Made by a program: the position numbers and the translations under genes | The notes under the pieces: generated by a model | What the model was told of the DNA's origin: nothing | Databases searched by the model: none | What the model saw: only the letters and a program-made list of their open reading frames with translations | Assembly (NCBI GenBank): GCA_012729395.1 | Contig: JAAYDF010000283.1 | Coordinates: forward strand, 1 to 51,218 | Length of the DNA stretch: 51,218 bases | Origin: Phycisphaerae bacterium | Lineage (GTDB): Bacteria; Planctomycetota; Phycisphaerae; UBA1845; PWPN01 | Reading direction: 5' to 3' | Shown: positions 15-47,822 of the stretch, piece by piece | Layout of the letters: every line of letters begins with the position of its first letter | Position numbering within the stretch: position 1 is the stretch's first letter

Positions 15-163
15 GGGTGCATCCGAATTTCAGGGGCACTGGGTGGCACTGGTCTGTACCCAGACCAGTGGCTGTCCGCATTTGGCCACGGGTCGGAGCA
101 CCGACCCATGCCACCCTCGATACTTCGCCTTTGGCAACTTGCCACTGAACGGCGGATGCACCC
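15..163. repeat. Nested inverted-repeat (cloverleaf-like) element
   Basis: The outer arms gggtgcatccg (15-25) and cggatgcaccc (153-163) are exact reverse complements. Inside them gggtggca (41-48) pairs with tgccaccc (109-116). Three compact hairpins sit within: cactggtctg/cagaccagtg (47-56 with 61-70, 4-nt loop), gggtcgg/ccgaccc (90-96 with 101-107) and ggcaa/ttgcc (133-137 with 139-143). No convincing gene lies here. Either a mobile structured repeat or a structured RNA upstream of metK is possible. It resembles in design the element at 23176-23277. Confidence 0.75.
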
Positions 164-23137: not shown

Positions 23138-23175
23138 CCCGGCCCGCGTGCCTGGTGGGGTGCGTTTTCTGTTGA

Positions 23176-23277
23176 GGGGCAGGCCTCATTCGTGTGGGCA
23201 CTGCTCTGTGAGCAGTGTTTTTCGGGGGAGAGGCACTGCTGACACAGCAGTCGCACGCGACGGCGCGTGCCTGCCCC
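23176..23277. repeat. Second multi-hairpin (cloverleaf-like) element
   Basis: The outer arms GGGGCAGGC (23176-23184) and GCCTGCCCC (23269-23277) are exact complements. Within are three hairpins: CACTGCTC/GAGCAGTG (23199-23217), ACTGCTG/CAGCAGT (23235-23251) and GCACGCG/CGCGTGC (23253-23270, sharing one base with the outer arm). The design of an outer stem with three inner hairpins echoes the element at 15-163, and both hold a GGCACTG hairpin. Confidence 0.7.
23199..23222 (+). terminator. Intrinsic terminator
   Basis: CACTGCTC, a TGT loop and GAGCAGTG form a perfect 8-bp stem followed directly by TTTTT, 61 bp after the stop of the 22706-23137 lipoprotein gene. Confidence 0.7.
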
Positions 23278-23502
23278 CCAGCCGCCACGGTTCGCAGGAT
23301 GCACTCTGCATGGTGCGGCTTCACCGGTCGCCCGTGCGGACACCGCCCGGTTTGCGTTATCATGCCGGGGCATGAGCCCTAATCCGCCAAGAGTATGCGT
23401 GAAGAGTGGTCGGTCCGATGAGAGCCGCGCTCGCCTGCCCTTCACCTCGCGCAGCGATGTCAAGGGTGAGGAAGCGGTTCCGCTGGGCCGCGCTGAGGGG
23501 AA

Positions 23503-46972: not shown

Positions 46973-47033
46973 GGAGACGGCAGGCTGGGCCCGGTGGCTG
47001 GGTGTTGCCTGTCTGTTGGGTCTGCGATGCGGG

Positions 47034-47822
47034 CTACTTTTCGCCGATGCGGAAGAATCGCAGGGCGTTGGCCGTCGCGGTGGCGGCGAGGGACTCGAAG
47101 GTCGTGCCCAGCAGGCCGGCGGCGAAGCGGATGGTGTGCTCGATGTGCCGGGGCTCGTTGGGCCGCAGGTGACGAATGGGCTCCGGAGAGAGGTATGGGG
47201 CGTCGGTCTCGAACATGAGGCGGTCGAGCGGCGTTTCGGCGCAGGCCTGGCGGACGGTGTCCGACTTGCGGAAGGTGACCACGCCGGAAAACGAGGTCCA
47301 CCAGCCGTGCTCGCGCAGCTCGGCGGCTTCGGCGGCGGTGCCGGTGAAGCAATGGAACACCACCGGGCGATCCGCGTAGCCCGCGTCGAGGAGGATGCCT
47401 ACCACGTCGTCGTGGGCCTCGCGGCAATGGATGACCACGGGTAACCCTGCCGAGCGGACCGCATCCAATTGTCGGCGAAACACCGCCCGCTGCACTTCGG
47501 GCGGGCTGAAGTTGTAGTGGTAATCAAGTCCCATCTCGCCGGCGGCGACCACGCCGGCTTCATCGTTCCACAGCGTCCGCAAACGCGCGAAATCGGCCTC
47601 GGTCACATTCGCGGCCTCGTGCGGATGAAAACCGGCCGCGATCCAGAGCCGCTCATGCCGATGGCTCAAAGCCATCGCGGGGTCGAAATCGCCCGGCGAG
47701 CAGGCCACGGTGATCATCCGCGACACGCCCGCCGCCTGCGCGTCCGCCACCACCTGATCGCATCGCTCGCCCAGGCCCGCGAAGGTCAAATGGCAGTGCG
47801 TGTCAAACAGCTCAATTGGCAC
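47034..47822 (-). CDS. tatD: TatD-family metal-dependent hydrolase
   Basis: A 262-residue TIM-barrel hydrolase of the TatD DNase family (3'-5' exonuclease type in E. coli). Metal-ligand segments are FDTHCHLTF, GEMGLDYHYNF, VVIHCREAHDD, VVFHCFTG and MFETDAPYLSPEP. The start is GTG at 47822, with AGGAGAGG 2 nt upstream. It lies downstream of yraN on the same strand, but a 24-bp inverted repeat separates them. Confidence 0.92.
   Translation of the reverse strand: MPIELFDTHCHLTFAGLGERCDQVVADAQAAGVSRMITVACSPGDFDPAMALSHRHERLWIAAGFHPHEAANVTEADFARLRTLWNDEAGVVAAGEMGLDYHYNFSPPEVQRAVFRRQLDAVRSAGLPVVIHCREAHDDVVGILLDAGYADRPVVFHCFTGTAAEAAELREHGWWTSFSGVVTFRKSDTVRQACAETPLDRLMFETDAPYLSPEPIRHLRPNEPRHIEHTIRFAAGLLGTTFESLAATATANALRFFRIGEK

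Follow-up and report, generated by a model that had tools for sequence, protein, structure and literature searches.

A mobile element upstream of metK in a Phycisphaerae bacterium, with a REPIN-like core and probably an ISKra4-type transposase as its mover

The window, that is, the whole analysed stretch of 51,218 nucleotides from a Phycisphaerae bacterium (contig JAAYDF010000283.1), opens with a 149-bp repeat that is followed by a predicted promoter and by metK. The features are listed below, with the basis of each given in parentheses.

6–14, no strand: left copy of a 9-bp target-site duplication, GAGCCCGCA (flank comparison)
15–163, + strand: whole MITE of family A, 149 bp (copies, ends, duplications)
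15–38, + strand: left terminal inverted repeat (arm alignment, end search)
41–116, + strand: cloverleaf core, a REPIN-like doublet (fold, alignment, covariance search)
41–48, + strand: head GGGTGGCA, paired with 109–116 (fold, paired changes)
50–67, + strand: hairpin 1, 50–56 with 61–67, extending to 47–70 (fold)
68–89, + strand: middle arm, the variable spacer of the doublet (fold, spacer comparison)
90–107, + strand: hairpin 2, 90–96 with 101–107 (fold)
109–116, + strand: inverted head TGCCACCC (fold, paired changes)
140–163, − strand: right terminal inverted repeat, the promoter-facing end (arm alignment, junction counts)
164–172, no strand: right copy of the 9-bp target-site duplication (flank comparison)
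192–220, + strand: sigma70-like promoter match, −35 TTGCCA at 192–197, 17 bp, −10 TACTAT at 215–220 (prediction)
284–1522, + strand: metK (S-AdoMet synthetase domains)
23158–23306, + strand: copy of the family B MITE with flanks TGCCTGGTG and TGCATGGTG, 8/9 alike (sequence match)

Arm alignment and folding bear out the ordered arms and hairpins that the initial annotation had reported at 15–163. The outer arms (15–38 with 140–163) are 24 nt long and 83% complementary, with the outermost 11 positions exact, and the inner arms (41–72 with 85–116) are 32 nt long and 78% complementary, with the outermost 8 exact. Ten of ten pairs are formed in the hairpin 47–56/61–70 and 9/10 in the hairpin 87–96/101–110. 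The + strand folds into a closing stem, an inner 8-bp stem and three arms, the third of which is 68–74/83–89; a small hairpin near 130–142 is weak. As single-stranded DNA the fold has an energy of −48 kcal/mol, compared to −25.0 kcal/mol (sd 2.7) for 200 shuffles, none of which was as good (z −8.5), and the order is thus indeed far above chance. For RNA the z value is −7.7 on either strand, again equalled by 0/200 shuffles, and the minus strand prefers a longer hairpin over the cloverleaf. The stretch has no coding capacity, and it is also correct that no gene accounts for it. A tRNA-like cloverleaf was rejected, as ARAGORN gave no tRNA match, and an Rfam scan of the element yielded no family at gathering score. 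The earlier reading of a real, ordered, cloverleaf-like repeat before the metK promoter therefore stands and the tests proposed with it were apt, but it offered no mechanism.

One of these tests, a search of the genome for further copies, gave dozens of them. In the genome to which the window belongs (G000, 5.74 Mb in 370 contigs), the copies of what we call family A are mostly 95–100% identical, and, counting distinct junctions that have 90 or more flanking bases, there are 26 on the right and 27 on the left. One copy, at 88% identity, carries a 16-bp insertion, and a piece in contig C269 shows 89% identity across 78 bases. In the copy at C312:47587–47751 (L025), hairpin 1 is larger by 16 bases and can still fold. 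At about 1276–1384 of C269 (L051) there is an old, diverged A-like core, in which hairpin 2 reads GGGTCTG/CAGACCC rather than GGGTCGG/CCGACCC, a paired change within the same genome. Many contig ends fall inside family A sequence, and C296 terminates with the same 127 bases that open the window, which means that the window starts at an assembly break on a family A repeat.

Complete copies of family A are flanked by 9-bp direct repeats. At least 7/9 positions agree in 14 of 15 complete copies, nine of them exactly, while mismatched-pairing controls gave 0/210, and repeats of 7, 8, 10 or 11 bases show chance identity only. The single failing copy (L003, C218:6243–6391) has the left flank of L024 and the right flank of L026, and would thus be a product either of recombination between copies or of misassembly. 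According to a home-made gene caller, 0/14 copies with full flanks lie inside a gene; in L025, as in L013, a predicted gene edge reaches 8 bases into the element.

A relaxed end search in G000 exposed family B, which also measures 149 bp and has A-type ends, with a different body. Its full-length matches are 81–96% alike, and 33 right and 24 left junctions were obtained. The 9-bp duplication is found in register, with at least 7/9 positions, in 11 of 19 near-complete copies (controls 0/342), and some of the remaining copies fail because their aligned end is slightly shifted (L062, L095 and L098, by eye). The minimum-energy fold of family B is a single long branched hairpin without a cloverleaf, and its body, read by eye, follows a two-hairpin plan. 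Target-site duplications are accordingly present in both families, and family A has in addition many copies, a length within 70–300 bp, terminal inverted repeats and no coding capacity. Since neither family carries a gene, both are MITEs. Window 15–163 is one copy of the family A mobile element, which is not specific to metK and is inserted before many unrelated genes.

Some other repeats were observed alongside. Two family B copies (L080 in C141 and L081 in C169) are broken near the left end by a TA-bounded inverted repeat, TAGAGC...GCTCTA. The window has a strong palindrome, CGTAGCGGTCGCC...GGCGACCGCTACG, at 1555–1627, 3′ of metK, which resembles the body of the nested repeat with TAGAGC(A/G)TTTCACGC ends in these two copies and is perhaps a TA-target MITE. 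Another B copy (L058, C109, about 46975–47247) is split by an insert of ca 155 bp with its own 18-nt inverted arms. At C188:1900–2030 (L077), and also in L076 and L078, there are four tandem units of ca 33 bp carrying CGTGTGGCACTGCTCTGTGAG, the hairpin head of family B, there outside any MITE.

The element had been placed just before the metK promoter, and the promoter match does lie downstream of it, with TTGCCA 28 bases past the right junction. A consensus scan of 15 right ends of family A gave nine strong promoter matches, eight of them located 26–28 bases past the junction and the ninth at 21, and the right ends of family B gave 6/19, at 26–29. The left ends gave 0/14 for A and 3/19 for B, the latter at 12, 47 and 48. 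All junctions were then counted for TTG at 25–29 and TAnnnT at 47–53, windows that were set after the consensus scan of the A and B ends had been seen. At the right junctions of family A, TTG occurs in 18/26 (rotated mean 2.6, maximum of 2000 rotations 12) and TAnnnT in 15/26 (mean 1.8, maximum 7). For family B both occur in 19/33, where 2000 rotations gave a mean of 2.5 and a maximum of 10 for TTG, and 2.0 and 8 for TAnnnT. The left junctions show TTG in 2/27 (A) and 2/24 (B), and TAnnnT in 0/27 and 0/24, respectively. Right ends of both families thus lie mostly 27–28 bp before a −35 box and left ends do not, and this preference explains the position before the metK promoter as one case of a rule. 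The gene at the right end reads away from the element at 17/21 A sites, where ca 0.65 is expected from the intergenic lengths of the window; this orientation alone is weak evidence, and the promoter position is the main evidence. Products were scanned for 10 of the 22 right-end genes (21 A sites and metK), and comprise S-AdoMet synthetase, a class II tRNA synthetase, AccA, PilM, an ABC ATPase, an SSF symporter, a SurA-like rotamase, an RF-1 domain protein, YbjQ and a trypsin/PDZ protein.

The same two windows, now fixed beforehand, were applied to an ISKra4 insertion sequence (IS) from another genus of the same order (G015), for which 12 matches were listed and 10 were taken. On the right side TTG is present in 4/10 (p 0.0035) and TAnnnT in 7/10, as high as in 0/2000 rotations, and on the left side the counts are 2/10 and 0/10. 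Exact 9-bp duplications flank 8/10 copies. These ten copies (L214–L223) have identical 24-nt ends, yet the promoter signal is on one side only. According to PMC3942029, the insertions of TnGBS and related ISs are oriented one way and lie 15–17 bases before the −35 region, whereas some ISs of the ISKra4 group insert upstream of −35 from both sides, and unequal ends are suggested to set the orientation. The one-sidedness of the G015 IS sits badly with that suggestion.

How should the element at metK then be read? Since metK is a gene with known riboswitches, the strong RNA fold beside it could be taken for a structured RNA or riboswitch of this gene. However, the copies precede unrelated genes, target duplications flank the element and Rfam gave no match. 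Lying upstream of the predicted promoter, the element is moreover not part of the leader transcript from that promoter, and we regard such an RNA as extremely improbable. Another option is a domesticated control element, that is, copies kept because the folded DNA upstream of −35 regulates genes. The constant distance and orientation at many promoters, together with the direction of the right-end genes, speak for it. However, the ten downstream genes scanned are functionally mixed, and high copy identity fits recent spread. Target choice alone suffices for the spacing, because the ISKra4 IS of another genus has it too. This scenario is therefore unlikely.

The inner 76 nt (41–116) occur also apart from the MITE. 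They are common to two loci of another genus in the same family (G012), where the ends are not shared. With a covariance model of this core, counted on both strands, matches at E up to 0.01 were obtained in 17 of 150 genomes, including G000 and G075. Setting these two aside leaves 15/148, some with single weak matches, of which one or two could be due to chance. The match in G075 (L210, C335:1–126) is on a contig of another family's genome that opens inside an A copy, and its right flank, GATCCCTTC, is the left flank (target duplication) of a half copy in G000, so this contig is probably mis-binned. Among the matches listed, the distinct places number 21 in G083, 20 in G411, 6 each in G024 and G383, 5 in G056 and 4 in G268.

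Across genomes the plan of the core is the head GGGTGGCA, a hairpin, a spacer, an inverted hairpin and TGCCACCC. In seven loci of G411 the arms are 99% alike, as compared to 0.30 for the spacers (14–30 nt) and 0.30–0.31 for the flanks. In six loci of G024 the corresponding values are 0.84 and 0.78 for the arms, 0.25 for the spacer and 0.27–0.29 for the flanks. Direct repeats next to the core are not conspicuous in either genome. In G083, conservation extends to the spacer (0.78), and by eye 6/7 loci have the core between flanks of the CTAGAGCGTGTTA..TAACACGCTCTAG type. CTAGTGC-type flanks surround the core in G411, clear in L186 and partial in L182 and L184 (by eye). The flanks in G083 and some G411 loci apparently resemble TA-bounded MITEs of the IS630/mariner type.

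Paired changes in relatives, another check proposed earlier, were also found. In 64 distinct rows (36 sources, both strands; L197, L198, L200, L204, L206, L209 and L210 left out) fitted to the model, changes on both sides are seen in 22 of the 29 pairs, and 94.1% of the cells are paired, compared to 76.7% in shuffles and 35–44% when slid. The support from an unfitted alignment of seven sequences is modest, with 96.0% paired versus 93.5% and two pairs changed on both sides, a number reached by 67/500 shuffles. The core alignment A2 leaves out L006, L016 and L025.

Judged from these sequences, the core constitutes a module of its own, in which two inverted hairpins are combined in REPIN-like fashion and have their GGGTGGCA heads paired, and its presence apart from the MITE in related genomes suggests that it was either captured by the MITE body or gave rise to it. 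As in REPINs, two inverted palindromes and a variable spacer form a dispersed unit, most clearly in G411 and G024. The heads are GGGTGGCA or near it, and not the GTAG or CGTC tag. A RAYT-type enzyme would be the obvious guess for the mover of the doublet, and no RAYT-like motif was seen in the 494,919 bases of loci scanned. One could go further and regard the whole 149 bp as a REPIN moved by a RAYT enzyme, in line with the anatomy of the core. The 9-bp duplications contradict this for the whole element, although not for the core. The ends are also unlike the core heads, and the scanned loci have no RAYT motif, which makes this reading highly improbable.

The reading that we favour, and hold with good confidence, is that 15–163 is a MITE of family A with a REPIN-like core, which an ISKra4-type transposase in trans has inserted upstream of a promoter. 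Duplications of 9 bp with GGG ends, which we take to suit ISKra4, were the lead to this mobiliser, and the duplication length, the end type and the target choice point to the ISKra4 family, which is Mutator-like. In this mechanism, a Mutator-like DDE transposase of that family would recognise the GGGTGCAT ends in trans and place the element just upstream of sigmaA-type promoters. Neither the promoter nor the gene would be disrupted, and the tolerance of metK or accA to the element would thereby be understandable.

The NCBIfam ISKra4 model has matches in 32/101 genomes including G000, eight of which are over the cut-off of 205 bits. Among the loci whose ends could be read, exact 9-bp duplications, equal in length to those of family A, flank the ISs of G011 and G015, which exceed the cut-off, and that of G253, which does not. 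ISKra4 elements likewise share the insertion before sigmaA promoters, although at a spacing unlike the published one. The ISs of G253 and G288 (176 and 173.5 bits, below the cut-off) begin with GGGTGCAT at both ends. They are the two of the eight ISs compared that have it, and their bases 9–24 are not significantly alike; the IS end search covered inverted repeats starting with GG in L121–L149.

In G000 itself the model gave three weak matches of 76.5, 63.9 and 33.9 bits, two of which are adjacent fragments in C70 while the third is in C316, and neither the model nor the end searches found an intact ISKra4 gene with family A ends there. The exact ends GGGTGCATCCG gave no autonomous partner in G000. 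The relaxed patterns gave A and B copies and no such partner among the matches listed (105 counted), besides a diverged 160-bp element at C316:23342–23501 and matches inside other sequence without a partner end. One contig-scan match for A-type ends, within a coding stretch, looks like chance and was dismissed.

That no ISKra4 gene flanked by fitting ends turned up in G000, and that the inner parts of the ends are not significantly alike, could indicate that the same MITE is moved by a transposase of a non-ISKra4 family. G000 has three DDE_Tnp_1 matches, namely an ISAs1 beside a B copy, an IS1380 and a third at C194, the last scanned for inverted repeats only. However, no GGGTGCATCY pair flanks any of the three among the end matches listed. 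In both the length of its duplication and its oriented spacing to promoters, the MITE agrees with the G015 IS, an ISKra4 element of the same order. A non-ISKra4 mobiliser has therefore a rather small chance.

With an ISKra4-type mobiliser, family A would function like an ISKra4-type MITE with a REPIN-like doublet as its body. A broader interpretation, which we put forward tentatively and with some doubt, is that the cloverleaf is a portable module taken up repeatedly by unrelated transposons as MITE body, ISKra4-type here and apparently IS630/mariner-type in G083 and some G411 loci. Here it would be coupled to a promoter-seeking transposase, so that folded DNA is set one way ca 27 bp upstream of −35 at many promoters. 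If this is true, the host could gain a ready-made, shared upstream control element. The promoter-placed junctions concerned are 26 of family A and 33 of family B, in which the body follows the same plan with two hairpins. They show promoter targeting by gene-less elements of two families, at a distance that exceeds the published one by about one helical turn, and provide natural material for studying how promoters are located by a transposase. The shared core also links REPIN-like doublets and MITEs, small-repeat classes that are usually handled separately.

Literature searches on MITEs of the ISKra4, TnGBS and ISLre2 types, cloverleaf MITEs, REPINs combined with MITEs and Planctomycetes repeats brought up, among the papers listed, no title or abstract describing such an element, and a search with the head sequence as letters gave none on the subject among the matches listed. 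Of the known systems, the prokaryotic Mutator-like elements of PMC3942029, namely the ISKra4 group (p-MULT 4) and TnGBS/ISLre2 (p-MULT 3), share with families A and B the GGG ends and the insertion just upstream of sigmaA promoters, and the same-order ISKra4 ISs share the 9-bp duplication. Unlike them, A and B have no transposase gene, lie 27–28 bp from −35 instead of 15–17 bp, and are one-sided, whereas both sides are reported there for the ISKra4 group. REPINs (PMC3116915) and REP families (PMC3733652) resemble the core in that two inverted palindromes are joined by a spacer of lower conservation, fold together and show compensatory changes. The core differs from REPs in that its head is GGGTGGCA where those have a GTAG or CGTC tag, and from REPINs in that no RAYT was found in the scanned loci and that it is embedded in a MITE with target duplications. 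Finally, the bacterial MITEs ERIC and NEMIS, named in PMC3733652 and PMC3116915, are like family A short, gene-less and strongly folded, with inverted ends and many copies near genes, but family A has other ends, a strict oriented promoter spacing and a multi-arm core common to other repeats.
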